Below are positions 5,697-30,100 of a stretch of DNA of 35,991 nt, piece after piece. Within the stretch, counting starts at the first letter, position 1, and each line of letters opens with the position of its first letter. The notes under the pieces were generated by a model. It ran no database searches. It had not been told where the DNA came from and saw only the letters and a list, made by a program, of their open reading frames with translations. The position numbers were made by a program, and so were the translations under genes. The stretch is from a virus: positions 1-35,991 of the IMG/VR virus record IMGVR_UViG_3300030090_000803. One strand, written 5' to 3'.

Positions 5697-7232
5697 ATGG
5701 CTATTACAGCAGGATCAGCTTTGAATACAGTGCCAGCTCCAGTGCAGCAGGCATTAGCTTCAAACTATCTAGACCTATCAACCTCTGCTGGTTGGGGTCA
5801 ACAATACGTGCCAGATCTTATGGAGAAAGAAGTTGAGGTATTCGGACCACGAACAATCTCAGGATTCCTTTCGCAAGTAGGAGCTGAAGAATCTATGACA
5901 GCTGACCAAGTTATTTGGTCTGAGCAGGGTAGATTACACCTGTCTTACACAGGTAATGTATCTCACACATCAGACGGTACAGGTGCCGGCGCTGCAGGTA
6001 CTACATCGGGTTACGACACTATTACTATTACTAAAGATATCGACGGCAATGACGTTACGGCTGGAACACACGGTGTTCGAGTTAACGACACTATTATCGT
6101 TTCAAACTCTGATGGTATTTTCAAGTGTTTAGTAACTGCGGTTATTGAGGCGTCTAACGTTATTAGTGTTACACCTTACGGTACAGCTACACTAACAGCA
6201 AATACTACTGCGGATGCTACAACTATCTTAGTTTACGGTTCTGAGTACGGTAAAGGAGCTAGCTACATGAACGCTCTAGCTACTGGAACAACTGACCAAA
6301 GAGGAGGTAACGAGCCATCGTTCAAGACTTTCTCTAACAAGCCAATTATCCTTAAGGATTACTACGAAGTGTCTGGATCAGATGCATCTCGTGTTGGTTG
6401 GGTTGAAGTTGCTGCAGAAGATGGAACTTCTGGATACCTATGGTACCTAAAGGCTGCTTCTGACACTCGCGCTCGTTTTAACGACTACTTAGAAATGGCT
6501 ATGCTAGAAGGTGAAAAAGGTGGAGGCGCTACAGACCAAACTGACTCTGCGGCTGCTTTAGGCGCTGGAGGTGTAGGTACGGCTTTAGGCGAAAACAACT
6601 TTGAGACTGGTACTGAAGGTTTATTCGCAGCTATTGAAGCTCGTGGAAACTTAACTTCAGGTGTTACTGGTGTTAATGCTGCTACTGACTTAGCTGAGTT
6701 TGACGCTATTCTAGCAGAGTTTGATAAGCAAGGTGCTATTGAGGAAAATATGATGTTTGTTAATCGTGCAACTAGCTTAGCTATGGACGATATGCTTGCA
6801 TCTATGAATTCTTACGGTGCTGGCGGTACTTCTTACGGAGTATTCGATAACTCTGAAGACATGGCTTTAAACTTAGGTTTCTCAGGTTTCCGTCGCGGAT
6901 CTTACGACTTCTACAAGTCAGACTTCCGTTACTTAAACGATCTAGCTACACGTGGAGGTATTAACGCTGCTAGTTCTGCGAACGCAATTCGTGGGGTTAT
7001 TATTCCAGCAGGTACTTCAACAGTATACGACCAGATGTTAGGCAAGAATCTTAGACGTCCGTTCTTACACGTTCGTTACAGAGCTTCTCAAACTGATGAT
7101 CGTCGCTTGAAGACTTGGACTACTGGTTCAGTAGGTGCTGCTACATCAGCTCTTGATGCTATGCAGATTCACATGCTATCTGAGCGTTGTCTAATCACTC
7201 AAGGTGCTAACAACTTCATGTTGATGAAGTAA
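5697..7232 (+). CDS. Major capsid protein (HK97-like fold, inferred)
   Basis: Forms the icosahedral shell. The 511-residue product starts MAITAGSALNTVPAPVQQAL and continues into YVPDLMEKEVEVFGPRT, the N-terminal pattern seen in major capsid proteins of Bacteroidota phages. Residues about 78-185 form a Thr/Gly/Val-rich beta segment (HGVRVNDTIIVS, then VISVTPYG) that looks like an inserted surface subdomain. After that come the core helices and the C-terminal part around LHVRYRASQTDDRRLKTW. Codon choice differs from the neighbours: Arg is often CGT/CGC and Asn often AAC, as expected for the most abundant protein. The gene is followed immediately by a strong terminator-like hairpin. The HK97 fold is inferred from family knowledge; the capsid call itself is well supported by position and composition. 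Confidence 0.88.
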   Translation: MAITAGSALNTVPAPVQQALASNYLDLSTSAGWGQQYVPDLMEKEVEVFGPRTISGFLSQVGAEESMTADQVIWSEQGRLHLSYTGNVSHTSDGTGAGAAGTTSGYDTITITKDIDGNDVTAGTHGVRVNDTIIVSNSDGIFKCLVTAVIEASNVISVTPYGTATLTANTTADATTILVYGSEYGKGASYMNALATGTTDQRGGNEPSFKTFSNKPIILKDYYEVSGSDASRVGWVEVAAEDGTSGYLWYLKAASDTRARFNDYLEMAMLEGEKGGGATDQTDSAAALGAGGVGTALGENNFETGTEGLFAAIEARGNLTSGVTGVNAATDLAEFDAILAEFDKQGAIEENMMFVNRATSLAMDDMLASMNSYGAGGTSYGVFDNSEDMALNLGFSGFRRGSYDFYKSDFRYLNDLATRGGINAASSANAIRGVIIPAGTSTVYDQMLGKNLRRPFLHVRYRASQTDDRRLKTWTTGSVGAATSALDAMQIHMLSERCLITQGANNFMLMK

Positions 7233-8224: not shown

Positions 8225-8920
8225 ATGGCAATAAGTGTAGATAGAGTATATCAAACAGTGTTAGCAATAGCTAATAAAGAACAAAGAGGTTATATAACTC
8301 CGCAGGAGTTTAACTTATTTGCCAACCAGGCTCAAAACGAAATATTTGAGCAATACTTTTACGACCTCAATCAATTCCATAGAATTCCTGGTAATAGCAC
8401 GGTTTCTTCAGACACGAAAGATATGATTGAAGAAAAAATATCTATATTCCGTGTTACAGACGCAGCTAGCGGTCCAAATTTAAGTAATAACGTATATAGA
8501 CTAGAAAGCGTACAATTTGGACTTAGTGCTCAAGGTCCTTTCTACGTAGCTGAAGAGGTTACTAAAAGACAATATGAAGCATATCACATTTCTGCGTTAA
8601 CAACGCCTTCAGTCAATAGACCTATATTTTACAGGTCAGAAAATACTATCTATGGTTCTCCAAACGACTATACTAATACACGTATAGATTATATACGAAG
8701 ACCAGCTGCTCCTAACTGGACATATGTTATTATAAACGATAAAGCTATATGGAATCCTGCTCCAAATGCTGGATCACAAAATTTTGAGCTTCATGAGTCT
8801 GAGGAGAAAAATCTAGTGATAAAAATACTACAGTACGCTGGTGTTTCTCTGAAAGATCCAGCTATTACTCAATTAGCAGCTCAGAAAGAAGGTGCTTACG
8901 TACAACAAGAAAAAGCATAA
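8225..8920 (+). CDS. Neck/connector (ring) protein
   Basis: Likely a head-tail joining protein that sits beneath the portal. The 231-residue product begins ISVDRVYQTVLAIANKEQRG and continues YITPQEFNLFANQAQNEIF, a helical N-terminal pattern that I associate with conserved structural proteins of Bacteroidota and marine phages just upstream of the nozzle gene. The remainder is mixed beta/alpha with YRLESVQFGL and a segment IDYIRRPAAPNWTYVI, resembling adaptor proteins that clamp on the portal. It ends in a short helical tail (KEGAYVQQEKA). It is followed after one extra TAA codon by the next connector gene. Family recognition is from memory; the exact ring it forms cannot be told. Confidence 0.7.
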   Translation: MAISVDRVYQTVLAIANKEQRGYITPQEFNLFANQAQNEIFEQYFYDLNQFHRIPGNSTVSSDTKDMIEEKISIFRVTDAASGPNLSNNVYRLESVQFGLSAQGPFYVAEEVTKRQYEAYHISALTTPSVNRPIFYRSENTIYGSPNDYTNTRIDYIRRPAAPNWTYVIINDKAIWNPAPNAGSQNFELHESEEKNLVIKILQYAGVSLKDPAITQLAAQKEGAYVQQEKA

Positions 8921-8923
8921 TAA

Positions 8924-10387
8924 ATGGGATATTTAGACAACACATCAGATCAAGAATATTACCAGAGCGGAGACTATGGTGGTTATCAATTTATTTCGCT
9001 AGATGATATCATAAATCAATTCCAAATTATGTATGTTGGAGAAGAAAAGTTAATATCAAAAGCTAGACGCGCTGATATAGCTTTTCATGCTCAGCGAGCT
9101 CTTGCTGAACTTTCATTTGACACGTTTAAGTCGTTTAAATCACAACAAATTGACGTACCACCAAGTCTTACGATGATACTACCTCACGATTATGTAAATT
9201 ACACTAAGGTATCTTACGTAGATAGCGCTGGTATTAAACACCCAATATATCCTACTAAACATACGTCTAATCCTTTCCAAGTAGCTCAGGATTCAACTGG
9301 AAACTACATGTTTGAAGGAGATGGAGATCAAATACTACAGAACGGGGATTTTGAAGGTAACTTATTTGATCATTGGTATCCTGTAAAAGCCTTTGACTCA
9401 ACTACAACACCTCCAACACCTCTTGTCGCTATAAACAGCGGTGTTCTTGAGTTCACCCATATTTCACAGCAAGATATTGGAGATAATTATTACGGCGACG
9501 CTCTGCACGCTACTCAACAGCTTGATGTTAGCGGTATAGACTACTTAACTATATCTGCTGACGGCGTAGCAGCTACCGCGTCTGGGTCGCAAAGCACTGG
9601 TCAACTTAGATTTGGATTAAGCACTGGTAAAGGTGACAATAACACATACCCGCTTAATAACCCGCTTTTAAATCCAGCTGGAGCATCATTGAACGCTACA
9701 TCTGACGTAGACATATTCGATATAGCGTATTTAGAATGGATCGGGACAACTAGCACGCAGGAACAAGCGGCTATTGATGTGTCAGAATACGACACTATAT
9801 ATGCAATAGTTACTTCGTATATACCTTTAGGAGCTGCTAGTTTAGAAGCAAAAAACACTATAGATAATATTAAAGTGTTAAACACCATTGGCGGCGATGG
9901 AACTCTTATGGCAGAAAGCGGTAATGAAATATTTAGTTCAACTTGGAATAGTTACAAATCTACCACTATATCAGAAGACTCTATAGATGATTATAGATAC
10001 GAACAACACTGGTTAAATCCAAACGAAAGATATGGGCTTGATCCTACGTTTGCTAACATTAATGGTAATTTCTACATTGATGAAAGATTAGGTAGAATAC
10101 ACTTTTCGTCTAATATTAGCGGAAAAACTGTAATCTTAGATTATATAAGTGATAGTCTAGGTACAGACGCAGAAATGCAAGTACCAAAGCTTGCGGAAGA
10201 CGCCATGTATAAACATATGCTGTATGACATTATATCTACAAGGGCTAACGTAAACGGTGCGAGGCTTTCTTTCCATAAAAGAGAAAAGTTTGCAGCCGTA
10301 AGAAAAGCTAAACTAAGATTATCAAATATTAAGTTAGAAGAATTAACTCAAATTCTTAGAGGTCAATCTAAACACATAAAGCACTAA
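8924..10387 (+). CDS. Connector/tail-tubular-type protein with inserted jelly-roll domain
   Basis: Probable second neck protein joining head and nozzle (tail tubular protein A-like position). The core is split: residues 1-135 include the helical DIAFHAQRALAELSFDTFKS and LTMILPHDYVNYTKVSYVD, and residues about 324-487 include HWLNPNERYGLDP, FYIDERLGRIHFSS, TVILDYISDSLG and a helical basic end. Between them, about residues 136-322 form a separate beta-rich module beginning NGDFEGNLFDHW and ending TIDNIKVLN (I313-D-N), the opening and closing signatures of CBM4/9-like galactose-binding jelly rolls. The gene is 3 bases from the nozzle gene. The connector call rests on position and core pattern; the inserted module suggests that this neck carries a surface-exposed binding domain. 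Confidence 0.72.
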   Translation: MGYLDNTSDQEYYQSGDYGGYQFISLDDIINQFQIMYVGEEKLISKARRADIAFHAQRALAELSFDTFKSFKSQQIDVPPSLTMILPHDYVNYTKVSYVDSAGIKHPIYPTKHTSNPFQVAQDSTGNYMFEGDGDQILQNGDFEGNLFDHWYPVKAFDSTTTPPTPLVAINSGVLEFTHISQQDIGDNYYGDALHATQQLDVSGIDYLTISADGVAATASGSQSTGQLRFGLSTGKGDNNTYPLNNPLLNPAGASLNATSDVDIFDIAYLEWIGTTSTQEQAAIDVSEYDTIYAIVTSYIPLGAASLEAKNTIDNIKVLNTIGGDGTLMAESGNEIFSSTWNSYKSTTISEDSIDDYRYEQHWLNPNERYGLDPTFANINGNFYIDERLGRIHFSSNISGKTVILDYISDSLGTDAEMQVPKLAEDAMYKHMLYDIISTRANVNGARLSFHKREKFAAVRKAKLRLSNIKLEELTQILRGQSKHIKH

Positions 10388-13300: not shown

Positions 13301-16300
13301 GGAAATCTTAACGAAACCGGCAAGTACTTTATACACATATCGTTTTTAGCGCCTGGTCAAGATCTTCACGATGGATCTGGCTTTCCCACTAACCTTAATA
13401 ACGTAGCGATACAAGGACCTAACGGTATAGGTAATTATTTGCAAGGAATTTATGGCGGCGGGGTGTTTAATAAAATATGGAATCGTCCAGCTGCGCCTAG
13501 CGGATCAGCATATGGGCAGTATGTTGCAGGTGAAAATAACTTAACTTTTGGTAATTCAGGTTTAAAGTACGTAGAATTTGAAGGCGCTTATCACAACGAT
13601 AACGTAGATAGCTTTGCTAGTACTCCACCTGGATTTTTTGAAGATAACGCTCTTTCTATAGGTTATGATCAAGAGTACCGCACTCGACATAGAACTCAAT
13701 GGGATCCTTGGATTGATGAAAATGGAATTGAAGACGAGTTGCTTCATGCTTTTTGTAATCAACTATCAACTCCTGGGCAAAAATTTAGGTTTTCTAATGA
13801 TTCAACTGGCACCGTATTTACCATATTAAAGTCAACCACAAAACACATATACAATCACACTACGTGGAGGATGAGATGGCGATGGGATCATGAAGAAAAT
13901 AGCTATGAAAGGCCTTTTACTAGCGTCGAGGAGCGTGCCAGCCAATGGGCTAATAACGCTAATCACTTAGGTATTCCAAACCATGGAGGTACAGCAAATA
14001 ACTTGATAAATAAAATAGTTGATTTTGGTAGAGCAAACAACAGAAGAACATGCTACATAATTGAGGTTGATATAGATCCACAGGCGGCAGGTGTGTATGA
14101 CCCTAGATCAAATCACGGAGCACTTTCAACAGAAGTTGGTGATATAGAATTTATATCAGAAGTAGCTCCGTCTATTATTGATTCTCAATTTAGTTATCCT
14201 ACTTTATGGGAAACAGAGCCTCAGCAACTGGCTGATTTAAATATATATTTTGAAGCTAGTAGCAATATTCCTACAATAATTACGGAGCAAAGTAAAGAAC
14301 TTTTCGCGCCCGCGGGTTGTAGTGTGTCTCTAGACTTAAACGTAAATATTAACGAATATCCAGAGTACGTTACTTTAGCTCAGTGGTCTGATTTAGCTAT
14401 AGAAATAACACCTGGTTTACCATTAGTCGATGTTGATGACAACGATATAGATTACACTGGCACTGTAGTTACGTTTACTAGAGCAGACGGTAGTTACACT
14501 AAAGCTAGAATCATTGATGACGTAGATCAAGAAGGAGATTTAAAGTATTTATTCCACATACAACTAGATCCATCTTTAAACACGGGGCTTAGTTGGTATA
14601 ATTGTTTTTCTTTTGGTGACGGAATAGAATCAAATAGAATACGCGACGGGTTTAATAAAATGCAAATAGCTAGTGGCGCTAGAGCTTCCGCTACGCTAGA
14701 AGAACCATTTAACGAAGAGCATAGAACTAATAGCCTTATATACTCTGGCTTATACAATTCTAATTCTGCGTTAAATAACCTTAATCAGTTTATTGCAGCT
14801 GAAAAAATTACTAAAGATTTAAATCCTACATATGGTGATATACAAAAACTATTTACACGAAGCACTGATCTTGTAGCGTTTTGTGAGGATAGAGTATTAA
14901 AAATATTAGGTAATAAAGACGCGTTATTTAATGCTGATGGTAATCCTCAGTTAGTTAGTACTAACGCAGTGCTAGGTCAAGCAGTTCCTTTTGTAGGTGA
15001 CTATGGTATATCTAAAAACCCAGAGTCTTTTGCAAAAGATGCTTATAGAGCTTATTTTACAGACAAGCAAAGAGGAGCTGTGTTGAGACTTTCTATGGAC
15101 GGTCTTACGCCTATATCTGACGCTGGCATGAGAGATTACTTTAGAGATAACTTAGTAGAAAACGCTGAGTTTATCGGTAGCTTTGACAACTATAATAAAC
15201 ATTATAATCTTACTATAAAACCAGGTGTTGATCCAGGGGAAGTTATCTTAGAAGAAGAATTTAACGAAGGCGTTGTTACAGAGGAGATAGTGACGGTAAC
15301 TGATGTGATAGAAAACGGTTCTTTTACTGAAGGTGAAGAGTCTGATGTATACCACACGATAGCAGAAATAAGCGACCCAAATCCTCTTCCACCAAATCCT
15401 CTTTACAATACAAACCTTGATTCTAGTACGAATTTAATTATTCACCCCGCAGTGCCTGTTGAGTCTATTCAAACAGCGATCACGGATCAACCTGGTCAAC
15501 AGGCTCTTGGTTTCTTTTATGGAGCTGGCGCGACTGTACCAGAAAAAACTCATTTTGCATTAGACAATAGCGTTTGGGGTGATACAGGTATGAACGTTTG
15601 GAGCGATGGTGCTGGTGGTGCCGTTGCTGGTACTACTAGATTTGTCACGTGGAGATATAGAAATAAAGCTATTGAAAATCAAACACTCAACACTGCTGTC
15701 TATACGCCAGCAGAAAATGACGACAACATAAATGGATCGTTAAATACAGCTTGGTACAATTACGCTGATGGTGTTTATCCAGGTCCTAAAGTACTAGATA
15801 ATGATGTAAGTTGTGCTCAGTTCTGGGACTTGGGAGCACAAGTATATGTTGAAACGGAAGGCAAAACAATTACGCCAACATCCGATACTTCACCATATGT
15901 TATGCACAACTCGTATCACGTCAGTACTACGCATAAAGGTATAACGTTTAGAGGAACTCCTAATAATGGCGTATTTGGAGGTATTAGATTTCCATGGAGT
16001 TTTTTAGAGCCACCAGAGCTGAATGATATACTTGGGTCTGGTATAAGTAGTAACGTACCTGACAATGTGCTTGAGGAGTATCCTAACGCAACTGATATGA
16101 CTGTTTTCAATGGAGAGGAGCTTCAGTTGACGATAAAGTTTAAAGCTAACGCTTATGGTTGGTATACTAAAAGTTACGCTAGTATTATACTGCGTGATGG
16201 TACTGCAAACATGGATGCTAGTTTGCTTCTTGATCCCGAGCCAGTAGAAGAGTATGGAGGCGGTAATCCTGCTTTGCAGCCGTTTACCCAGTTTTCAGGA

Positions 16301-18922
16301 AACCAAGACTCTGATGCAACACCGTGGCCAAACGGTGTACACCTTAATACTGATGATTTTGAAGAAGGCACTTGGGAAAATGACGATGAAGAGTTTGTTG
16401 TAAAACGTCATTTTAAAATAGTCGACACAAGTATTACTGATAGTAATGGAAACGTAACGACAGGTATTGCTATTAATAACTTTAATGTTGCAGTTAGTAT
16501 AAGATCAGGCGAACTACCTTATCAAGGTGATTTTGTAATTGGCGAAACTGGGTGGGTTACTGATGGAGGCCAAACCTACTGGACAGGTGAAACTTTAGGC
16601 GCACAAGGCGAAATTGTTATTACAGAAATACGTTTAGAGAAAATACATAAGATGTTCCACCCAGGTCAAGAGTTTATTGCTTCTGGAAATCAACCATCAA
16701 TACCTGAAGAAGCTATTGGTGCTTGGGTTGAGGTTCAGCATAACGCGCCTGAAAATGTGACTGGGCAAAATGTAAATTTAACATATGGAAACGAGTTGCT
16801 CTATGGCGCTGAAAACCCTGGAACAGTAGTCACCGGCGTGGACAATAGCGGTGTTGAGTATAGTTACGTTACCGGAACATCAAACACAAACGCTAACGGT
16901 GAATTAATACACCCTAGTAACGAAAATCTTGATATTGATTGGCCATCGGTACCCGTGTATCCAGAACCAGCAGCGTCAATTACAGAAACCGTTAACGGTG
17001 CTAATAGCTTGGTTAAGCTAAATCAAACCCCAAATGCTTACTTGAATCTTAGTATGAGCCAAGATTTTATATTAGATCATTGGTATTTAGTTGACGTAAC
17101 CACTACAGAGCCACTCCAAGGAACTTTGCGTATCCCTGCCGTCGCCTCGAATGTTGGTGTTACTGGATATGATACATACGGGTCAGGTGGACTTGGTACT
17201 ATTTACGAGATGTCCAATCATAAAGGATTTGAGTTTACTACTATTGACCCTGAACTACCGATGGAATATGATCCAGCTTTAATTAACGGTACTGGCGATT
17301 TAAATATCAGTAGAGTTTTATTTAGATACAGACAAGGCTCCTCGCACTATCAAGACAACTATACCAACATCATTATACAGCGTGTTGATTCTTCGCAGCA
17401 AGCAGAAATTAGAAGCGTAAATGTTCTTGACGTTACAGATAATAACTTTATTACAGCTACTGCTAGCGGATGGGCTCACAACGGAAACCAAGTTCCAGCG
17501 CCAAGAGCTATAGTTAATGGCGCACAAAACACGGGTTACACTTTACCTTACTCTTACAAGAAAGACGGTAAGGTACACTTGGATGTAAGAAGTACTAGTA
17601 TAGGGGAAGGCATTAAGGTCTGCCGTCAAAACGTAACTGAAATTTTTGAAGCCGTACCAAGTGATGGTACAAACTATCAAGTAAATTTTAGTTTGTCAGA
17701 AAACTGGCTAGGAGAGTACAATGTTAATCAAGGAAATGGTCTTAGCGTGCAATGGTATCACAACATAGATGGAGGAAACACGTTTGACCTGATGCAATAT
17801 GTTACTGGTGATCCTGGCGACTATAGCTTTACTCTTCCAGAAAGCCCCGAGCTATTTAATAGTTCTAATTTAAGATTTTTTGTGTCGAGTGGTGATGATA
17901 CTGTCTGCGCCATAGACAATGTTAGTCTAATGCAGACTGTAATAACGTTTGATCCTGGTAACGCTGGCGCCTGGGTAATAAGTGGTTTTAATCAAACGCT
18001 GTACGATTACGTAACTTGGAATGATGGTGCTATAGAGTTTAACGAAGCTCCAAATTTTTCTACGATTTCACAAGCTGTTGAACTAGAAGAAGGCGCCACA
18101 TACGAGATATCCTTCGACATGTCTGGAGATATTGACGGTACTTTAACTGTTTCATACTTTAATTTAGAAGGCGTAGGGTTTCATCATTATGTCAATAACA
18201 TATCTGAAGAAGGTCACGTAAGCTTTTTAGCAACAGTTGGTAGCCAAACAAGCACAAACGAAGAATATGGTATGTGGGGTTCTTTTAGATTACACTCAGG
18301 TTTTGCATTAGAAACTTTCACTGGAATTATAGATAACGTAGCAATAAGAAGAATATACCAGCTAAATGATATTGACACACATGAGCAAACAATAACGTTT
18401 AGCGAAGATGTTAAAGGTTGGGTAAGTTTTAAATCGTTTATACCAGAAAACGCACTTAGTCTTTCTAGCGATTATTACACTGTAAGAACCGGTAGGCTTT
18501 ATAAGCACAACATGCCTTTAGAGGATGTTGATAGAAACACTTTTTATGGCGCATACGAGTCTTCTGTAGTTACAGCAATATTAAATCAACAGCCATCTAG
18601 TATTAAAAACTTTAAAAATATAAGCTACGAGGGTTCTCAGTCTAGAATACTTGAGTATGACTCATACGACTCTATTGACGAAAATGGAAACCTATTGGTT
18701 TTATCTAATGCTTCAACTTATAATTTGACTGATAAACTCGGTTGGTACAATGAATCAATAATAACAGATCAACAAGAAGGTCGTATACTAGAGTTTCTTG
18801 AAAAAGAAGGAAAGTGGTTTAACTATATTTCTGGAGATGCGCAAAGTATTGTAGACTTAGATGTGTCTAAATTTAACCTGCAGGGCTTAGGTGTTGTATT
18901 AAACAGTATTGAAAATGGATAA
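10391..18922 (+). CDS. Giant tail nozzle-type protein with adhesin-like insertions
   Basis: The 2843-residue product is read as the tail nozzle, a role comparable to T7 gp12 or P22 gp10, which have a beta-propeller-like body. The N-terminus has GKMNKDLDERLLPNGQY and ALNVDITSSEDS, widespread in crAss-like and related phages. Core segments follow: FSGKFFVKIQYAPY near 715, PTLWETEPQQLADLNIYFEA near 1275-1295, LNQFIAAEKITKDLNPTYGD near 1460-1480, AYRAYFTDKQRGAVLRLSMD near 1553-1572 and GSFDNYNKHYNLTI ending near 1608. The core resumes at about 2664 with VKGWVSFKSFIPENALSL and continues to the end. The intervening roughly 1050 residues are beta-rich modules, at least two ending in the jelly-roll signature IDNV (I2508, I2647). 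No cleavage site or membrane segment is seen. It overlaps the next gene by 8 bases. The nozzle role is inferred; the conserved structural family is recognised with good confidence. Confidence 0.78.
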   Translation: MPEIKNTFSQGKMNKDLDERLLPNGQYRHALNVDITSSEDSNAGVIKNIPGNIQMSGIASATSQRCVGSISDERNNKLYWFTHSDAYDGIFEFNQITEESRCVLVDKLFTVLKFSGAQITGINIIDDFLFFTDGFNEPKKINISKKYHEDDTIDAVSQTHARLFIDDIDKGELQERHVTVIKIKPSNAPTIKTNKAENEKQAIFEKVFPRFCFRYKYDDGQYSAFGPFTEVVFNADYPNEINSQNSYFTGEPYNKAMTNLISSVEVYDFVPSDIPEDVVQVDILYKQEDSNVVYSVKNIKYTDDAWSEPGSNQFNNLSNTNFKGKYVISSENIHAALPENQLLRPFDTVPKSALAQEIIGNRLVYGNYKLGYDFDGLTPGVDANYVLRNSQNFLEGGLKSIKSLRSYQLGVVLGDKYGRETPVFTSDEAGINIRWDGPYGKNASKSFMFEANINQDLPSWADYYKFYVKSASSEYYNLIMDKSYFPFTNTEYENPENHMYVSFPSSDRNKIMEDDYIIAKKIYDGSGSQVLLNNRYKILDISNEAPDAVKYIFQNLGTASNNTDNLLCNSTPATTPSLFINPNNGSSGSAGLRIDQETDTVHFNKTVWEGAGNNGGINGGVLIDPDATEDVENLYISWNRDSAYSERYKVSSARLSSSNVYVLKLGKKISNKDAKLAALGGTIDTGNPLTETLLHPNLNFKVEKRTERNQEDFSGKFFVKIQYAPYLTGFNIDEDAIYPTSVHSTNWLFDVHEAFMANGGDPSDGAVNSQSDGQDMNGMSTAASIAGVTGFCTTEPEWEAVLQEIGRTFFIDDMYHAGCNTKTTNEEWFAKESGAGQRGNSFAHKPLVWNSYTQQDNSQDGPMGINSSVNWDVSGWGLVAQDIDSNLDSVTPRPSIVNFSYEPPEYVHNNAVNSMEGIITTTNYHTGYETDSLPNYFNYGYRAWRNTLYATGAYNDGPEISVPSHYDTTYGNLNETGKYFIHISFLAPGQDLHDGSGFPTNLNNVAIQGPNGIGNYLQGIYGGGVFNKIWNRPAAPSGSAYGQYVAGENNLTFGNSGLKYVEFEGAYHNDNVDSFASTPPGFFEDNALSIGYDQEYRTRHRTQWDPWIDENGIEDELLHAFCNQLSTPGQKFRFSNDSTGTVFTILKSTTKHIYNHTTWRMRWRWDHEENSYERPFTSVEERASQWANNANHLGIPNHGGTANNLINKIVDFGRANNRRTCYIIEVDIDPQAAGVYDPRSNHGALSTEVGDIEFISEVAPSIIDSQFSYPTLWETEPQQLADLNIYFEASSNIPTIITEQSKELFAPAGCSVSLDLNVNINEYPEYVTLAQWSDLAIEITPGLPLVDVDDNDIDYTGTVVTFTRADGSYTKARIIDDVDQEGDLKYLFHIQLDPSLNTGLSWYNCFSFGDGIESNRIRDGFNKMQIASGARASATLEEPFNEEHRTNSLIYSGLYNSNSALNNLNQFIAAEKITKDLNPTYGDIQKLFTRSTDLVAFCEDRVLKILGNKDALFNADGNPQLVSTNAVLGQAVPFVGDYGISKNPESFAKDAYRAYFTDKQRGAVLRLSMDGLTPISDAGMRDYFRDNLVENAEFIGSFDNYNKHYNLTIKPGVDPGEVILEEEFNEGVVTEEIVTVTDVIENGSFTEGEESDVYHTIAEISDPNPLPPNPLYNTNLDSSTNLIIHPAVPVESIQTAITDQPGQQALGFFYGAGATVPEKTHFALDNSVWGDTGMNVWSDGAGGAVAGTTRFVTWRYRNKAIENQTLNTAVYTPAENDDNINGSLNTAWYNYADGVYPGPKVLDNDVSCAQFWDLGAQVYVETEGKTITPTSDTSPYVMHNSYHVSTTHKGITFRGTPNNGVFGGIRFPWSFLEPPELNDILGSGISSNVPDNVLEEYPNATDMTVFNGEELQLTIKFKANAYGWYTKSYASIILRDGTANMDASLLLDPEPVEEYGGGNPALQPFTQFSGNQDSDATPWPNGVHLNTDDFEEGTWENDDEEFVVKRHFKIVDTSITDSNGNVTTGIAINNFNVAVSIRSGELPYQGDFVIGETGWVTDGGQTYWTGETLGAQGEIVITEIRLEKIHKMFHPGQEFIASGNQPSIPEEAIGAWVEVQHNAPENVTGQNVNLTYGNELLYGAENPGTVVTGVDNSGVEYSYVTGTSNTNANGELIHPSNENLDIDWPSVPVYPEPAASITETVNGANSLVKLNQTPNAYLNLSMSQDFILDHWYLVDVTTTEPLQGTLRIPAVASNVGVTGYDTYGSGGLGTIYEMSNHKGFEFTTIDPELPMEYDPALINGTGDLNISRVLFRYRQGSSHYQDNYTNIIIQRVDSSQQAEIRSVNVLDVTDNNFITATASGWAHNGNQVPAPRAIVNGAQNTGYTLPYSYKKDGKVHLDVRSTSIGEGIKVCRQNVTEIFEAVPSDGTNYQVNFSLSENWLGEYNVNQGNGLSVQWYHNIDGGNTFDLMQYVTGDPGDYSFTLPESPELFNSSNLRFFVSSGDDTVCAIDNVSLMQTVITFDPGNAGAWVISGFNQTLYDYVTWNDGAIEFNEAPNFSTISQAVELEEGATYEISFDMSGDIDGTLTVSYFNLEGVGFHHYVNNISEEGHVSFLATVGSQTSTNEEYGMWGSFRLHSGFALETFTGIIDNVAIRRIYQLNDIDTHEQTITFSEDVKGWVSFKSFIPENALSLSSDYYTVRTGRLYKHNMPLEDVDRNTFYGAYESSVVTAILNQQPSSIKNFKNISYEGSQSRILEYDSYDSIDENGNLLVLSNASTYNLTDKLGWYNESIITDQQEGRILEFLEKEGKWFNYISGDAQSIVDLDVSKFNLQGLGVVLNSIENG

Positions 18923-20120
18923 ATTTATTAATTCAGTTGGTGTTTCACGTGGCGATATATCAAAGCAGGGTGAAACTAGACCTTTAACAATATACGGTTC
19001 TAATAACGCTGATTTTATATTGCAAATAGTTAGTAGCGAGGGTAAATTTTATAACTTTACAACTAACGCTTTTACTGAAACAACGCACACTCCACAAAAT
19101 AAATTTTCAGCATCTTTAAATGGAGATACTTTTATAAAAACTATAAAATTTCCATCTGTTACATCAGAAACTACATACAATATAATTGTCATACCTGATC
19201 ATACGAAAGGAGTTAAAACAAGATTAACCGGTGGTGTTTCTAATATTTCTTTAACGCAAGTGGTAGATGTTACGTTAACTTTTGGTTTTATAACATCTTC
19301 GGCAAGCAACTACAATGCAACACCTCCAGCAGCGAACATAACTACAGTTGGCTCGCCTCTGCAGAAAGGTTCAACTACTGTTAGCGTATCTAAAACAGTA
19401 ACAAACGCAGCTACTGATAACAATGGTCATGGATTAAGATTAACGTCATTCCCCACTGATTCAAGTATTGTCTTTAGAAAAGATACTACGTTAAGTGGTA
19501 CTACTAGCTCGTCAACAATTTTAGAGGTTGCTAGCGCTGCTGATTTAGCTGTTGGAATGTATTTAATTGTTGGACCAAATTTATCTGGTACTCCTCAAAT
19601 ATCATCTATAAGTGGAACTAAGATCGAGCTTACGACGGCTCAAACTCTTAACTCAGATGGCGCAACATTAACTTTTGAGGCCAGAGGTGCTAAGTCTATA
19701 TACAGCGCAATAGGAGTCGGTATTAGCAGCGTAAAGCTTAAAGTCGAGATACCAAGCACAGGCGAAGTAACATCCACTGTTAGAGGCGCTATAAGTAATA
19801 GCACCACAATAACGCTTAATGGCACGTATGGTATAGCGGGAGGTAACTTTGTTACATATGACGGAGCTGGAGTAGATAGTAGTACGGCTAACGCGGTTAC
19901 TTCAGTAACAGATAGAGGCGGCGGTAATCCACCTACTACTCTAGGTGAAATTGTAGTTCAAAAAGCACAAACACTTTCTGATGGAACTCCTTTGACATTC
20001 AAAGGCTCTACTACAGCGGTTAATATAGTAGGAACTTTTGATATAAATTATTTTGGAACATCAGATAGAACGATTAGTTTAGACTTAGATAAATTTATAA
20101 CAGTAGGAGCTGCATCATGA
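18915..20120 (+). CDS. Tail fibre-like beta-rich structural protein
   Basis: Product of 401 residues from the ATG at 18915. An in-frame TTG two codons earlier is less likely, because the ATG overlaps the nozzle stop by 8 bases in the usual coupled way. Residues 1-110 (DKFINSVGVSRGDISKQG, then TFIKTIKFPSVT and TYNIIVIPD) look like a virion-attachment domain. The rest is Ser/Thr/Gly-rich beta structure with a repeated unit: ELTTAQTLNSDGATLTFEA near 238-256 and IVVQKAQTLSDGTPLTFKG near 346-364. This composition is typical of fibres, spikes or nozzle-decorating proteins. No lyase or chaperone motif is visible. It overlaps the next gene by ATGA, so the two are probably translated together. Exact role unknown. 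Confidence 0.7.
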   Translation: MDKFINSVGVSRGDISKQGETRPLTIYGSNNADFILQIVSSEGKFYNFTTNAFTETTHTPQNKFSASLNGDTFIKTIKFPSVTSETTYNIIVIPDHTKGVKTRLTGGVSNISLTQVVDVTLTFGFITSSASNYNATPPAANITTVGSPLQKGSTTVSVSKTVTNAATDNNGHGLRLTSFPTDSSIVFRKDTTLSGTTSSSTILEVASAADLAVGMYLIVGPNLSGTPQISSISGTKIELTTAQTLNSDGATLTFEARGAKSIYSAIGVGISSVKLKVEIPSTGEVTSTVRGAISNSTTITLNGTYGIAGGNFVTYDGAGVDSSTANAVTSVTDRGGGNPPTTLGEIVVQKAQTLSDGTPLTFKGSTTAVNIVGTFDINYFGTSDRTISLDLDKFITVGAAS

Positions 20121-20515: not shown

Positions 20516-20932
20516 ATGAGTGATTTAGTAAAGTTTAGAACATTTAAAGATGGAGACTATGATCTTTGTTGTGAATGGTGGAAATCTTGGTGGGGAAAAG
20601 CAGGTCCAGTACCAGAAGCATATCTACCGCCGAGAGGTAGATGTTATATGATTGAAATGAACGGCAAACCCGTTGCGGCAAGTTTTTTATATGCTGACGA
20701 GCTGATGGGTTATTTGACGTGGACAATATCAGATCCTGAATATAGAGAAACTAATAGAAAAAAATTAATAGAATTACTTATTACAAAAATACAAGAGGAC
20801 GCAAGAGATACTTGGGGAGTTAAGTTTATACTTACAGTATGCGGTAATAAGCACCTGGAGAAAATACATAGAAAATTAGACTGGTATGTAGAGGACTCGA
20901 GTCCTGCGTACGAGTGTTTTAAATACTTATAA
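20516..20932 (+). CDS. GNAT-like N-acetyltransferase
   Basis: Product of 138 residues with the layout of the GNAT fold: an N-terminal strand-helix (VKFRTFKDGDYDLCCEWWKS), a central strand pair CYMIEMNGKPVAASFLY, strand LTWTISDPEYR, a long helix (KKLIELLITKIQEDA), strand KFILTVCGN, and a final helix-strand HLEKIHRKLDWYVED ending YECFKYL. The acetyl-CoA pyrophosphate-loop consensus (Q/R-x-x-G-x-G/A) is not clear after the fourth strand; PEYRETNRK sits there instead, so the cofactor site may be degenerate. It lies alone behind a 45-base gap in the structural block, just before the ejection genes. A substrate cannot be read from the sequence; modification of a virion protein, a host protein or a small molecule are all possible. 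Fold confidence is moderate. Confidence 0.65.
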   Translation: MSDLVKFRTFKDGDYDLCCEWWKSWWGKAGPVPEAYLPPRGRCYMIEMNGKPVAASFLYADELMGYLTWTISDPEYRETNRKKLIELLITKIQEDARDTWGVKFILTVCGNKHLEKIHRKLDWYVEDSSPAYECFKYL

Positions 20933-21801: not shown

Positions 21802-24096
21802 ATGGCAGTAAATTTATATCAAGGAGCAGACCCAACAATAGCGACGGCAGCGGCGAGAGCTGGTATGGCGTTAGCTCCTGCTGACTATAGCACGACTTTC
21901 CAAAATATAGCTACATCATATGCTGAGGGTATGGAGAAACTTGGAACTGGTTTAGCTAAAGCAGCTGAGGTAGGAGCTACAGCAACAGCTCATTTAGTGC
22001 AAGACGCAAAGCTTGCTAAAGAAACATACGGTCAAAATTGGATGGATACAGTTTATGGCGATATGAAGGGTTTAATAAGAGGCGGTATAGATATTCTTAA
22101 AGGCCAAGTAACTGAAATAGCTGAAGATGGTACAAAAACAGTTACCAAACTAGTTGATGAGTCTGAAGCAGGTGGTCTTAGTATAGCTGACCAAAAAGCT
22201 CAAATGAAGCAAAACTGGAAAACCAAGAAGACTAGAGCGTTTAATACATTCAAAAAGATGAGGGATGGAACCCTTGGTATAGAGGAGTTATTAAATAATG
22301 GCAATGTAAATCTAAATGCTTTAAGCGCCGCAGATTCTCTTGTTGCCCAAGGTTTAATGGCAAAAGGTGATGCGATTAAAGGCGGTCCGTTTGATGGCTG
22401 TAGAGTGGAAATGGAGGTTGATGAAACAGGGGAAGGATATGTATTTAAGGTTTATGATAAAAACGGCAAAGCAGTTAGTGGAGTACACGCTGAGACCGGT
22501 AATTTAGAATACGTAGATGGCACAGATATTATACCTATTAAGCGAGAGCAAAGAACTGAAAATGCTAAAGTAAACAACGCTACAGTAAACAAGTATTTAG
22601 AAGCAGATGTCTCTAGTTTAAAGAACAACCTGCAAAGGGGAGAGCTAATTTATGATCAAAAGCAAGGCAATGCATGGAGCGCGGCTGAACTTCAAAACCC
22701 AAATCTGGTTAACCAACAAACCCGAGACACGTATGAAATCCAGTCTTTTTTAGAAAGCAGGGGATACGATATTGGTGCAACTGGTGCTGATGGGATATGG
22801 GGATCTAAAACTCAAGCTGCTTGGGATAAGTTTAAGCAAGAGTCTGGTCCAGCACCTGTTGGTACTAATGATCTACTGGGCGCTTTAGCTACGGCTGCTG
22901 ATAGATCTCAACTATCTATAACCGCTGATCAGGTTGACAATTTAGTTGTAACGCATGAGGCTGATAAAATAATAGCTTTAAATAAAATAGATATAGACAA
23001 CATTAACAACGGCGCTAAAGGGCTACAGTTTAGAGAAAACGAGGTTAGAAACCAGATTAGAGGTATAGTTGATACACCAAACGCTTTTCGTGATCTAACA
23101 CACTCAAATTTAGCTAACATGCAGTACACTTATGCTGAGCAGTTAGGTATGCCCAATCAGTGGAGTGCCGCGATGCTAACGCAAGTTCAGCGCATGGGTG
23201 AAGACGGTTTATTAAGAGATACTAATAATGACGGTAGTTTTGACGCTGGCGATTTTCAAGAAACGGATTACGAAAACTTTAAAGTGTTAAGAAACGAAAT
23301 GCTTAATCCACACAATCAAGCTGCAAAAGAAATATTTGTTAATTGGTTTACTAATGGAGTAAAACTATCTCATCAAGGTGGGTTAGATAGATTCAACGCC
23401 AAAAACACAGGTGGCGGCGGCGGCGGTGGTGGCGGCGGCGAAGAAGATAAATTCCGCTATCCTGCTACTCAAAACTACCAAGGAGGTGTTACTGGTAGCG
23501 TATTAAATAACTATCTAGCAATGCTTCAGGGTGGTAGCCTTACGCTTGAGGGTGAAAGATGGAATTTGAACGAAGCGATTAACGTTTGGCAAAATGATCT
23601 TGGCGAGACAATGACTGGTGGCGATCTCGTGCAGCGTATGCAAGATGATATATACACCAACTTTGGTGAAGATGCTTATAATATTCTTCTTGACGAAAAC
23701 TTTGCGCCATACGCTAAAGATATGTCATCTGCACCAACACCAGCGGCTGGAGGACCTATAGTTGTTAAAGATAATTATGGTGCAGAATATGAACTCGGTT
23801 TATTGAGTAACTGGTCAAGAACTGGAGGCAAAGATGGAAACTTTGTATATAATGGTCCAGATATAATGCGAGGTGGTGAGTTACTACTCCCTAAAGGCGC
23901 TATGATAACCGCAACTAAAGGCTCTTATAAGCACGATGGTAAAATAGTAACAGAGGATACGGACGCAGTGTGGGATTCAGGTGAAAAAGTAATGCCTCAA
24001 AGTGGTTGGACATCAAGTTACATTGGGCCTGGCTTGACTCAAAGATTAGTAGACGTGTTGATAAGAAACGAAGGCAGCGACGGAGAACTAGATTAA
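21802..24096 (+). CDS. Ejection protein, gp15-like position, with peptidoglycan-binding domain
   Basis: Product of 764 residues, close in length to T7 gp15 (about 747). The N-terminal 120 residues are Ala-rich helices (MEKLGTGLAKAAEVGATATA). Residues about 310-348 (YEIQSFLESRGYDIGATGAD, then GIWGSKTQAAWDKF) match the PG_binding_1 fold, a three-helix domain that binds peptidoglycan. A calcium-type loop DTNNDGSFDAGD is at 473-484, with acidic or Asn residues at positions 1, 3, 5, 9 and 12. A ten-glycine run lies at 537-546, encoded by GC-rich codons and probably a flexible hinge. The C-terminal part (GPDIMRGGELLLPKGAMITA) is beta-rich. There is no lysozyme or transglycosylase motif, so it would grip rather than cut the wall. 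An alternative is a tail-associated cell-wall adhesin. Confidence 0.72.
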   Translation: MAVNLYQGADPTIATAAARAGMALAPADYSTTFQNIATSYAEGMEKLGTGLAKAAEVGATATAHLVQDAKLAKETYGQNWMDTVYGDMKGLIRGGIDILKGQVTEIAEDGTKTVTKLVDESEAGGLSIADQKAQMKQNWKTKKTRAFNTFKKMRDGTLGIEELLNNGNVNLNALSAADSLVAQGLMAKGDAIKGGPFDGCRVEMEVDETGEGYVFKVYDKNGKAVSGVHAETGNLEYVDGTDIIPIKREQRTENAKVNNATVNKYLEADVSSLKNNLQRGELIYDQKQGNAWSAAELQNPNLVNQQTRDTYEIQSFLESRGYDIGATGADGIWGSKTQAAWDKFKQESGPAPVGTNDLLGALATAADRSQLSITADQVDNLVVTHEADKIIALNKIDIDNINNGAKGLQFRENEVRNQIRGIVDTPNAFRDLTHSNLANMQYTYAEQLGMPNQWSAAMLTQVQRMGEDGLLRDTNNDGSFDAGDFQETDYENFKVLRNEMLNPHNQAAKEIFVNWFTNGVKLSHQGGLDRFNAKNTGGGGGGGGGGEEDKFRYPATQNYQGGVTGSVLNNYLAMLQGGSLTLEGERWNLNEAINVWQNDLGETMTGGDLVQRMQDDIYTNFGEDAYNILLDENFAPYAKDMSSAPTPAAGGPIVVKDNYGAEYELGLLSNWSRTGGKDGNFVYNGPDIMRGGELLLPKGAMITATKGSYKHDGKIVTEDTDAVWDSGEKVMPQSGWTSSYIGPGLTQRLVDVLIRNEGSDGELD

Positions 24097-24105
24097 TAAT
24101 AAACT

Positions 24106-27100
24106 ATGGACGAATTAAAAAAACTATATGACGTTGTCGTTAGAGAAGGCAAGTATACAAAATCGTTTGAGGAGTTTCAACAACAATACCAAGATCCTAA
24201 TTATCAAAAAAAGGTTTTTGATGTTGTTAGTAGAGATGGTTTATACACTAAAGATTTTAACTCATTTACCGCTAAATACGCGGGAAAGCCACAAGGTGCT
24301 GCCGGGACCGATGCGACAGCAGCACCAGTTATGGGTTTACCATCGGAAAGTTCTTTTTCGGCATCGTCGCCAATCATTAGCCATATAAAAAACGAAGAGT
24401 TTGACGACATTCTAGGCTCAACCACGAGAGCGTTTGATGAATCAGGAGGACTTACGGGAGGTGTGCTTATGGGGAGCTGGAGTGAAAAAGACGTTAGAGA
24501 AAGACTTGCGAAACACTATGGCGAAGATAAGTTTAGCTTTGAAGAAGTTCAGGCGGGTACAGATGCTATAGAAATAAGAAATAAAAAAACTGGAGCTAAA
24601 AAGGTTTTTAACCTCAACTCTACTTGGAATATTAGTAACAATTTTGACACCCTTGATGAGATATATGGATCAGACATGGGTAATCTTGACAGGGTTGCTA
24701 AGTATAGAGAGGACGGTGGATTTCTTGGGGTAACTCTGCCTGAAATACAAAAGTGGATGGACGAGAGCTATGGTGCTGATGTAACTAAAACTGAAATACA
24801 AACTCAACAAATAGGACAGCTTTTTAAAAGCAAACTTGAGGATCCAGAGTTTATGAAAAACGCTTTAGGTTCAGACGCAGAAAACTTTAGATGGATATTA
24901 CCAACTGACTACGGCGGTAAAGGAGGTAGAGGTGATGAAGACGACTACAAAGAGTTAAGTAAAAAACTCAAGGACCTTGTTATGGAAAGAGGTTGGATTT
25001 GGAATGAGATGAATGAACAGTACGGTAACTTAGATGAAACAGATATTGAGTATATTATAGAAGATGCTGTAACAGAAAAGTTTTACGAGGCCAGTGCGGA
25101 GTACGCTCAAGAGCAAAAAGATCTTTTAGCTTTCAACATAGAAGATCAGGGCACTACTATTGACGAAGTTTACAAAAACCACGAAAACTTTAAAGTAGAG
25201 TCTTTAAGCGCTAAAGAGCGTAAGTACTATGACGCTATGAAGAAGTACGAGGCTATGCGTGACAAGGAAGGAGCTTACTCAGGAGGAGTATCTCAGGAAG
25301 AACTTGACGCACAGTTGGCAAGGGTTAAGGAAGCGAAGGAAGGTTATCAAAATTGGTGGAATCAAACTAAAGATCTTATAGATCTTGAGACGGGTAAACC
25401 AATAAGCGCCTTAACGGAATCTACCGCCGCTTTTGAGGTAAACTACGAAGATACAAAAGATTTACTAGAGGATCAAGTTGGAGCAGCCATGGACGCTGAC
25501 GAAAGCTTAACGTACGACGAGGCTTTAGAAAAAGTATTTAACGAAAACGGAGCTGCGCTATGGTCTCACGAATTGGAAGGTAAGAAAAAGTTTAAAGTTG
25601 TAATAAATTCTAATGACGTAATTGAGTGGCTAAGGGATGTAAAAGGCATCAAATCTGTAGGTGAAACTAAAAACGGGTATATTTACGACATGTCTCTTGC
25701 GGATCTAGCTGCTAACTATGACTACATGGTTAAGAGTGATGGCTGGGGTATTAGAGGTTGGCAAGATTTTAGATCTGGTCTTAAAGGTAGTCCCGTGGCT
25801 GGGGCGGTAGATTGGGGTGTGGCAATTCAGCGCGAAGGTGATTTTGTAGGACCGGATCGCTCTGGTGAATTTGATTCGCCAGAGGGGTATTTTGGTCTAT
25901 TAGAAGAAGACGAGAATACTGACTTTGGGTTTTCAGAAAACTGGATAGCAAAGCGAGCTCAACAATGGTGGTACGACGAGGAAGAGTTCGGTGACTTTGA
26001 CGATAGATCTCAAGGCTTTAAAAGAATGCTCAAAGATTACCGTGACGACCTGCGTGAGTTACAGAGACGTGATGTCACTTTATCTAGGATGCATTTACTT
26101 AACGAAGACGTTAGCACTGGCAATACTGCAAGAAAGTATTTAGGTAGAGGAGCTGAAATGATGTACGAAGGGTTTGGTGGTATTTTTGGTCTTGATACTT
26201 ACGTAGACGCAGAGTATATAAGCACGCGAACTCAAACAGACGTATTGCAAGGTATAGTAGATGAGGGGCTTTTAGAGGAGACAGAGCAGATGAAAGAAGG
26301 TTTTAAGCGTAGTGGCGCTCTGAAAACCTACGAAGGTGTAGTTGGGTTTGTGCCAGCAATAACTGAGTTTGCTTTAATTGAAGTTGCTGGTAAAAAAATA
26401 GGTATTGTTACTGGTATACCTAATCTTATAAAAAATCTAAACAAAGGTTACAAAACAGCAAAAGGCGTTAAATTAACTGGTCAAGCACTTAGATCTGAAA
26501 GAGTTGCTGGCGTAGGTATGCAATCTGGTAAGATGTTAAAATACGGAGATGAAGGTTTTGACGCGGCTTGGGTTGCTAGTGCTGGTGGTACGGTTACAAA
26601 GTCTAATTTAGCAAAAGGCTTACACTTTGCGTATATGTCCGCGTGGGAAGAGGCGAAAATGGCTAAAGCGTTTGATGAGGACTACCACATGGGAGGTGGT
26701 ACGGCTTTCTATGGCACTGGTATGCTATTGAACAAGTTGATCCCTTTAACGTCAAGATACGCTAGACTAAATGAAATTATAAAGATTGGTAGATCAGGTG
26801 TGGCAGGTGCTGTATCTACGCAGAGTGCAAAGGCTTTAGAAGCTCTTGTAGATGATTTAAGAGGAAACAAAACATTTGGTAAGTTTGTAGACGAAAACTA
26901 CTCTGAGTTAGGCGAGCTTGGGCAAGACGCACTAATAGACTTCTTTGTGTTTTCTCTTGTAGGTGCTAAAGGGCATGTTGGCAAGGGAATTGAGGGTGGA
27001 GCATATAAACTATCAGGCGGTAGAATAGGTAGAAGAAATCCACTGTGGATGAGCTATCAAAAACTACATAAACTAGAGCGTCAAATACCAGCTATACTTA

Positions 27101-30100
27101 GGAGAAAGAAGTCTCAAATGGAAGCGGATCCTGATAATAAAAAGCTACAACAAGAGTACGATACATATCTTGAGTTATATCAAGGCGTAAGCGGTAAGCT
27201 TAGAGAAATGGACAACTGGGCTGATTGGAACGATCCAGAAAGAGCTAAAGCTATGCTAGAGAGATCTGGCAGAAATATGGCTGAGGTATTTAACGAAATG
27301 GGTATTAAGGTTAATTACGAAGCTACTGGAGAAAGGAACAATGAAAACGGTTCGTCTAAATTTAAGTTTGAAGACTCTTCTGCCGAGTTTCAAAAACAAG
27401 CTGATGGATCTTATAAGGTTTTAGTAGACACTACTAGAATGAAGCCTGGTAAAATGCCTCACGAGGTATTCCACTTAGGTATGAAGACATTGTTCGACGC
27501 CAACCCCGCGGTTTTAAACAACTTTAAATCAACTATAGAAGGTGCTTTCAAAGGCGTTAAATTTTTTAAAGTCCCTGTAAAAGATAACAAAGGTGAGTTG
27601 ACTGGGGAGAAGAAAGACATGACACTAGAAGAGTTGGTTATGAACGAGCACGGCCGTCAAGCTAACTTTGATAATATTAAAGCTAATGAGTTTTTAGCTT
27701 ACGTTACCGAAGTGTTATCTAACACAAAGCACTATAATAAGTTTATTAAAAACGATACTTTTAATAGAATTAAGCAAGACGTAAACTTGTTTACACAAAG
27801 ACAGTTTGGTAAAACAGCTTTTGAAGGACCTACGTTTAAGCAAGAGGTTATTGATTTTATGGGTAACTTCTCTAGGTCAGTTAAAGCAGGTACACTTACT
27901 AGAAAGCAAGTGCAGGTATTTAAAACACTAGCTGAAAAGGGTAACTGGATGGAAGGTACTGAGGCTGACTTAAGAACAGAAGAGTCTAGAGATATGGCTG
28001 AGATGGAAACATTAAGCTCTAAAGATCTTAAAGAAGTTAACCAGACAGAAAAAGACAATAAAAGAATTGATACAGAGCTTGAAAACTACCACAGAAACAA
28101 TTTAGAAGGTAAAGAAAATATTACCTTAGACGATTTGAAAGAACTTCAGGGTCAAAAAAGAAGAGGTCCAGGTTATGATATTGACATGGAATCTCCATAT
28201 ACAGACTTTGAAAAATACCCAGTTCTTGGCAATGTTTTAGGTAGAGCTTTTGACCAAGCTGTAAACATGTATCAGCGTAATATACCTGAAAGATATAGGA
28301 TTAACTTAAATGACAGGGGTTACGAAAGCGAAAGAACTGAGTTAGCGAACGAGGTTTTATCTAATAAAAAGCGTGGACTACTTGACATCGTGCGTAGATA
28401 CGATCCTAACAACGAGCAGGGAGCTACTTTAAAAAGCTGGATAACAGGTCAACTGCGCACAAGAATGCAAGAGCTTAAAGGTGGAAGCGTAGATAAGAAG
28501 TACGAGTCTCGAGCTGCAGAAGCAGAGGGAGTAGTTGTGTCTGGAACAGACATATCTGAAATAAATATGGATCTGATCGATCCAACTAAAGGAGGTGGTA
28601 TAGATAAAACAGCTGATAGAGCTGGTGTAAACGAAAAAACAAAAGGCATAAAACTAAAAGATCATAAGTTTGAGTTTGAAGGTGGTGTTAAAAGAGCTAT
28701 AAATCCAGAGTCTGTAAAAAGAACTTCAGAAGCTGGTGAAAAAGTGTTTAACGAAACGCCTTTGAATGACTTAACGTTTATGGGTGTTGCTACTCGTATG
28801 CGTGAGTCGGCAATGAATGAGATGGATCTTTTGTTTAGAAACGGTAAAGAGCTTAGTAAACCTAAAGAAATACAAGAAGTTGAAAAACGTTTTACAGATA
28901 ATGTAAACAACGCCGCGGTGTTATACGACGCTATGCCAGAGTTTTCACACCCTAAGCATTATGAAAACACTCAGTGGGGTAAAACAGTGTTTAAAGTTTT
29001 CTATGAAAAAACCGGTGAGAAATTTAAGTCAACTGACTTACCAGTAGAGTTAACTAAGAAAACAAACGCTAGAACTGAGAAGTATAGGAAGCTACCGGCT
29101 ACACCAGAGCGTATACAGGAGTTTATAGAATTAATGAACACTGGTAGAGATGCTGGCGTAAAGAATAAAAAACGTGCAACGCTAAAGCAAGGTGTTGGTG
29201 ATATCTTTACTACGCAGACGTTTAGAGACATGCTTAATAATCCTGAGTTTATTGAAAGGGCGGAGTCAACGCCTGAAGGTAAAGCTAAACTAGAGGGATT
29301 AAAAGCTGAACTTGCAATGCGTAAACTTCGTGGAGCTACACCAGAAGCAATGGCGTCTAAAGATGTGGAATTAATAGAAGACTTTATTCCAGAGGTTAAA
29401 AACATTGATTGGGAAAGATCTAAAGATCCGGCGCTTGACATGATGCGCTTGCTAGATCGCAACCCTGAAATTGTTCGTATACTAGAGCAAAATGGAAGCA
29501 GTACTAAAGGCTTTATAGCGGATATGGGCCATAAGGTTACTCGTTTCACACAAAAAGCGTTTAACAAGTTTGCAGCAGGAGCTAGAAGATTAGGGCTTAC
29601 TACACTAGCGTCTTATACGCCAAAGATTTTTGACGGCGGCTTTAAGGGTACGAAAGGAAAGCTCGGTGTTAAGCAAGGTGTTTTAGATTTTTTCAAAGAA
29701 AACATGGAGCCCGAGGTGTTTGAACAATTTGAGAAGGAGCTAAACATCGATGTAGACATGGCGAAGCGAACAGCTGACCCTAAGTTTTCTCGGGAATTTG
29801 TAGAAGAATTTTTGCCGGACTTTTTCAGCACGTTTGATGCTGGGATGCTCGAGTTTCACAACGGGATATTCCGCTATACCACGGGTGAAGGAACTGAAAG
29901 ACCGGGTTTTAGAGAATTAGTTGATTACATTCCTAATAAAGCGCTCAACGGTATGAGCAATAAGGAGTTAATAAAGCTTGCTAATGAAATTTCTAAAGGT
30001 CCTAAAGGTGACAAACGAGTTAAAGAGCTAAGCGCAGAACTAAAGAAAGCTGGTAAAGAAAACGCTAAAATTAAAAGCAACTTAATTAAAGCCATAAAAA

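Follow-up and report, generated by a model that had tools for sequence, protein, structure and literature searches.

Introduction

The head-tail region of crassviruses has been described for phi-crAss001, which has ring proteins R1–R5 and a muzzle, with 12 copies per ring and 6 per muzzle (PMC10172136). Its ring proteins are 225–238 aa in length and have two domains, with no inserted jelly roll in the part of that paper that describes them, and its muzzle varies in length through insertions (PMC10172136). An extra beta domain is carried by the dodecameric neck adaptor of roseophage R4C; it is N-terminal, Ig-like, and capsid-contacting, and exchange at a fixed site does not figure in the sections of that report drawn on here (PMC10276861). 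Lactococcal 936 phages have a variable neck decoration, the neck passage structure (NPS), with carbohydrate-binding domains and domain exchange (PMC10684548). It is present or absent in a hot spot, and its function is termed unknown in the portion of the study cited here (PMC4759559).

Domain mosaicism of phage adhesion proteins is known. What is unusual at the locus described here is the location, inside a conserved ring/connector-type protein, and a search of the literature that covered few subscription journals returned no description of such an insertion. The NPS is the closest functional counterpart, but it is a separate accessory gene of siphophages, whereas the domain here lies within the core ring ORF of a podophage-type virion. 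Like R4C, the locus adds a beta domain to a neck protein; unlike that of R4C, the domain is CBM-like.

Results

The source is an IMG/VR virus record of 35,991 bases, analysed at full length (the window). It contains a packaging and head-tail gene block with a large terminase, a portal, a structural protein, smaller proteins, a 487-aa ORF, and a 2843-aa muzzle (Table 1). We label a 511-aa ORF (5697–7229) the major capsid protein (MCP), judging by gene order and by its counterpart in named relatives, recorded there as "structural protein", and not by a family hit. The named relatives infect marine or brackish Flavobacteriia and include Cellulophaga phages phi38:1 (Pervagoviridae) and phi18:3 (Pachyviridae), the Flavobacterium elemo phages, and Maribacter phage Panino. 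Two phages of these families, Calle (Pervagoviridae) and Gundel (Pachyviridae), are reported to have podovirus-type morphology (PMC8776804). A small ORF between virion genes (20516–20932) matched a GNAT acetyltransferase family (PF13480, E 9.9e-5), and an ORF in the equivalent block of a relative from Manatee Spring is annotated as an N-terminal acetyltransferase. Two further ORFs are a 764-aa virion-block ORF (21802–24096), possibly a virion lysin, whose aa 244–353 weakly match an endolysin-type PHROG, and a 3187-aa ORF (24106–33669) without PHROG match that may, by position, be a cargo protein.

Table 1. Positions of the ring ORF, its parts, and neighbouring head-tail features in the window
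Feature	Position	Strand	Basis
Ring/adaptor-type virion structural protein (putative), 487 aa (core ~300 aa + insert)	8924..10387	+	PHROG 13977; core-profile match to phi18:3 gp113
Core, N-terminal half (helices + first part of beta domain)	8924..9328	+	Alignment, AlphaFold2
Inserted type A jelly-roll domain (predicted), aa 136–322	9329..9889	+	AlphaFold2, Foldseek, VIA-align, alignment
Core, C-terminal half (remaining beta domain + C-terminal helices)	9890..10384	+	Alignment, AlphaFold2
231-aa virion protein preceding ring ORF, possible second ring protein	8225..8920	+	PHROG 14543; hhalign to crAss001 gp34 prob 65.7%, E 5.8e-5
Muzzle/nozzle protein, 2843 aa	10391..18922	+	Pfam PF25729 crAss_MUZ_C at aa 2714–2815, 35.1 bits vs cut-off 27
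Muzzle mega-insert, ~1050 aa (aa 1610–2661)	15218..18373	+	Absent in L002 and others
Muzzle module m3 (aa 2354–2516), CBM4-like fold, low-confidence model	17450..17938	+	AlphaFold2; VIA-align 2y64 Z 11.0, 2.9 Å, 129 aligned
Muzzle module m4 (aa 2512–2659), CBM-like fold, homologous to relatives' type C ring inserts	17924..18367	+	AlphaFold2; VIA-align 4d0q Z 10.7; hhalign; HMM iteration

The ~300-aa core of the 487-aa ORF matched PHROG 13977 (virion structural protein) in two stretches flanking the insert, and named relatives of 269–307 aa, in which the insert is missing, align to the core across the site. The core is thus otherwise continuous, as a reading of the sequence alone (the sequence-only reading) had proposed. 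Core-profile matches included phi18:3 gp113 (E 6.8e-40) and phi38:1 gp096 (E 7.6e-62). The gp113 record is annotated with MS/MS proteomics detection in virions, and it is through homology to gp113 that the ring ORF product is predicted to be a virion component. The ORF is directly upstream of the muzzle gene within the head-tail block, the place that ring protein gp43 occupies directly before gp44 in phi-crAss001; ring-muzzle gene order and the crAss_MUZ_C domain are common to both phages (PMC10172136). Comparison of the core with crAss001 gp34, gp35, gp40, and gp43 gave no significant profile similarity (hhalign probabilities 0.2–0.6%); the basis for calling it a ring protein is therefore gene order, the PHROG label, and homologues. 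A profile search against solved structures gave no significant homology for the core. Assigning the 487-aa ORF to the ring or adaptor proteins is well grounded but conjectural. A head-tail joining family, PF24214, was too weak a match to be assigned to the core (best E 0.014, 2 of 25 members). Nine ring proteins without insert (L074, L075, L079, L081, L084, L091, L096, L097, and L098) have an N-terminal extension of ~90–110 aa.

Ring ORFs with both core halves were collected from two viral-contig scans, two named phages, and the window (n = 98). The length of the site between the halves is bimodal: 39 sites are empty (−13 to +4 aa relative to the empty site) and 59 are filled (90–442 aa). The 59 inserts fall by BLAST (1e-3) into type A (36, including the window), type B (14), type C (6), and three singletons. 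Types A, B, and C have no mutual profile similarity (hhalign), giving at least three unrelated occupants. Because relatives leave the site empty or fill it with other domains, it looks like an exchangeable attachment point. The longest insert (L047, 442 aa) has a second element nested inside its type A domain. A relative of this nested element (E 2.1e-7) is the structural ORF that follows the muzzle in the same phage (L047:18519–19751); window positions 18909–20120 lie at the equivalent place.

The first sample of relatives was ranked by similarity to the insert-bearing protein, and a second, MCP-based sample was therefore drawn. It yielded 46 ring ORFs with both halves among 80 loci, 28 empty and 18 filled, the latter by type A (7), type B (6), and occupants outside types A–C (5, including two of ~430 aa). 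The samples overlap, with at least 13 of the 46 on first-sample contigs (names compared by eye). The ~430-aa domain of L154 and L157 is unlike all other occupants; in L154 it starts with KVYVFYDGTSMG, and this copy is without Pfam match. A small occupant of ~135–160 aa (L122, L143, and L099) has no match to types A–C, and similarity among its three copies was judged by eye.

We searched for the insert apart from its core. With the insert alone as query, all 21 type A loci were ring ORFs by the N-terminal core profile and 20 of 21 by the C-terminal profile, the exception (L182) being cut off. The type A profile had no matches outside ring proteins in viral-contig loci and identified no GTDB genome locus. 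The 487-aa protein was matched by 85 phage records, each covering at most 56% of it among the matches listed, and the insert alone had no match at E ≤ 1 in 50,697 phage records. Since these phage records match only part of the protein among the matches listed, and none of the 50,697 matches the insert, the insert is not needed for such virions in general.

The insert occupies one exact in-frame site. The sequence-only reading had correctly placed it at residues 136–322 of the 487-residue ORF, but its nucleotide coordinates (9330–9893) were off by 1–4 bases; in frame, the insert is 9329–9889, and structural matches reach aa 130–326 (9311–9901). The start signature NGDFEGNLFDHW and the end TIDNIKVLN are both in the translation. 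AlphaFold2 (43-row alignment) gave a confident, all-beta, compact model of the insert, with ten-residue mean pLDDT of 81–97 for aa 161–320 and of 75, 91, and 73 for the blocks in 131–160; the surrounding core was much less confident and largely poorly predicted. Two outcomes would have told against an inserted module, namely a region that is not a compact domain or one conserved across all relatives; neither was found, as the domain is compact and missing in 39 of 98 ring ORFs.

The predicted domain is a beta-sandwich jelly roll of the ~140–180-residue kind typical of CBM4/9/16-type modules. Its best structural match by Foldseek and VIA-align was CBM16 (Z 13.8, 2.2 Å, 130 of 147 residues), and VIA-align also matched CBM61 (Z 12.8), a porphyran-binding CBM (12.1), and CBM4-2 (11.8). 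CBM16, CBM61, and CBM4 resemble it in fold (2.2–3.1 Å over 127–134 residues) but share 11%–17% identity with no Pfam or PDB sequence match; they are enzyme-borne, whereas the insert is borne by a phage ring protein and its ligand is putative. CBM-like domains of phage tailspikes were also among the matches (K2-2 TSP, 8iqe, Z 11.7; CBA120 TSP4, 5w6h, Z 11.1). These are similar in fold, belong to virion proteins, and act in a recognition context, but are part of an enzyme spike, whereas the insert belongs to a conserved ring/adaptor protein. The CBM-like fold is not confined to glycan-binding proteins: the EphA ligand-binding domain, MAM, reelin, and Stig cyclases were among the Foldseek and VIA matches. 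Matches to Cry and Vip3 insecticidal proteins point to a common lectin-like beta-sandwich, not to toxicity.

The sequence-only reading had called the insert a CBM4/9-like jelly roll, which agrees with the fold and not with the sequence. None of 28 type A members matched Pfam CBM families, including PF02018 (CBM4/9), at E ≤ 0.5; the type A profile matched no PDB chain at E ≤ 10 and nothing significant in PHROG (best E 0.07). With Pfam, PHROG, and PDB profiles all non-significant, CBM membership of type A is unsupported by sequence. PF02018 did match one of six type C inserts (E 0.0062) and, below its cut-off of 25.9, the insert of L110 (E 0.017, 16 bits). In CBM4/9/16-type modules, residues of a structural calcium site lie at the N- and C-terminal signatures. 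By residue counts, type A members conserve N140 (27/30), F143 (29/31), and D314 (28/31) at the signature positions. Conserved positions in the type A family are G231, Q198, D201, N257, and D314; W272 and R229 are conserved as well.

CBM-like modules are also present in the muzzle. The 1818-aa muzzle of L002 aligns on both sides of the mega-insert, which it lacks. The last two mega-insert modules (m3 and m4) were modelled with a mean pLDDT of 61, the m4 part mostly at 72–89, and matched CBM4-2 (Z 11.0), CBM70 (4d0q, 10.7), and CBM16 (10.2) by VIA-align. Because the same templates (4d0q, CBM16, 8xmz, and CBM4-2) match the ring insert and the muzzle modules, the two share a fold class. The closing motif of the insert had been noted in the next gene as well, and [IV]DN[IVL]x[ILV] does occur once in the insert, twice in the muzzle modules, and once in ORF 21802–24093. 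These four occurrences in plus-strand ORFs of at least 60 aa compare with 0.19 expected (200 shuffles, maximum 2), so the observation is well beyond chance.

A single module family spread over two virion proteins, as the sequence-only reading suggested, is true of the system, since the type C ring inserts found in relatives share homology with muzzle module m4 (hhalign 95.4%, E 1.9e-8). It is not supported for the window's own type A insert, which has no significant profile similarity to m3/m4 (hhalign 1.1%, E 0.05). The inserted domain itself is confirmed, and its earlier interpretation is partly supported. Modules m3 and m4 are homologous to each other (hhalign 95.3%, E 2.2e-8). The type C profile matched the muzzle of L019 (E 4e-16), a phage whose ring site is empty, and with one iteration it also reached the window's own muzzle at 2500–2667 (iE 3e-7); only iterations 0–1 and hhalign were used, iterations 2–3 being drift-prone. 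Of 65 complete muzzles, 57 had both anchors and 8 lacked one. A mega-insert (gap ≥900 aa) was present in 14 of the 57, all with ring type A (14/25 type A vs 0/32 others; Fisher, 6e-7). An association is not claimed, because there are only 3–5 independent pairs and kinship may account for it.

The core tree (97 rows, L076 left out) requires at least 10 changes of site state. L019 is empty within a 21-row set (SH-aLRT 95) that is otherwise all type A, and its insert was most likely lost. Inserts diverge faster than cores; at 80%–90% core identity, insert identity averages 53% (21 pairs). Core and insert trees of type A (31 rows, the 36 minus L047 and four near-copies) conflict, indicating that cassettes were exchanged between lineages. 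The cores of L013 and L014 group with the window (14 rows, 100/98) and their inserts with L034, L043, L035, and L046 (93/93); the core of L030 groups with L027 (96/88) and its insert with L029 and L031 (99/97). AU tests rejected forced agreement of core and insert (p = 0.0044, 0.0055, 1e-6, and 0.0004), values that are optimistic because the groups were named after the trees had been inspected.

Discussion

On balance, the insert is probably an exchangeable adhesin cassette that binds glycans and surrounds the tail in many copies; that it binds sugar, how often it is present, and where on the virion it lies are all inferred. A CBM-type beta-sandwich would sit in the beta domain of a ring/adaptor protein, close to where head and tail meet in a short-tailed marine phage of the crAss-like kind. 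By analogy with phi-crAss001, ring proteins of this type would form dodecamers, so that ~12 copies would surround the tail barrel. The copies may bind polysaccharide weakly but with high avidity, either flavobacterial capsule or exopolysaccharide or polysaccharide particles, and, once bound, would hold the virion near the cell. Cassettes would be swapped by recombination between the conserved flanks as surface glycans vary, and the CBM-like modules of the hexameric muzzle could do the same job at the tail tip. The closest folds, the variability and exchange, the same-type modules at the tail tip, and the flavobacterial hosts argue for this role. Counted against it are that fold is not function, that the site is often empty, and that named relatives manage with no insert.

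The leading rival is a structural attachment domain: in contact with the capsid vertex, a fibre hub, or the muzzle, it would stabilise the neck and bind no sugar. There are precedents, as the peripheral Ig-like attachment domain of the R4C adaptor is in contact with the capsid, and a part in adsorption is considered unlikely for it (PMC10276861), and fibre hubs of crAss001 are carried by ring proteins R1 and R2 (PMC10172136). Confinement of the mega-insert to ring type A (14/14, among 57 complete muzzles) could also mean contact, but 11 of 25 type A phages lack it, and with 3–5 independent pairs the association may be kinship. A site that is empty in 39 of 98 ring ORFs, has otherwise unrelated occupants, and shows strong divergence and swapping makes a purely structural role unlikely, at perhaps a lesser but real chance. 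An adhesin that uses a CBM-like scaffold to bind a protein, or another receptor that is not a glycan, would fit the protein-binding domains in the same fold class (EphA ligand-binding, reelin) and a sequence far from known CBMs; by Z, however, CBMs are the closest folds, and we consider this improbable. A neutral passenger or selfish element in a permissive loop, whether intein-like or a random domain insertion, is very improbable: one permissive site does take many domains, even the nested insert in L047 (442 aa), but the fold is all-beta and CBM-like, Pfam scans gave no intein or nuclease match, and conservation of G231, Q198, D201, N257, and D314 argues for selection on the type A fold.

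A broader reading can be put forward tentatively, and we hold it with less confidence than the role of the insert itself. One ring loop may be a general docking slot for unrelated cassettes of several kinds: two CBM-like families, a beta family resembling repeats, one or more further small types, and the 430-aa domain. Cassettes would be acquired, lost, nested in one another, and exchanged there, with one CBM family moving between ring and muzzle. Such a slot might provide a second, ring-borne, multi-copy recognition of host or particle beside the tail fibres.

In tailed phages, fibres and spikes are where host recognition is usually looked for. At this locus, a conserved ring/adaptor gene, commonly treated as an invariant core gene, has one site that bears an exchangeable cassette of CBM-like fold. 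Natural comparisons are available in the insert-free L019 and the exchanged L013/L014 and L030. If the cassette binds glycans, adhesins would have to be sought inside connector proteins when marine flavobacterial phages are annotated, and the ring gene would offer a prediction of host or particle range that can be put to the test.
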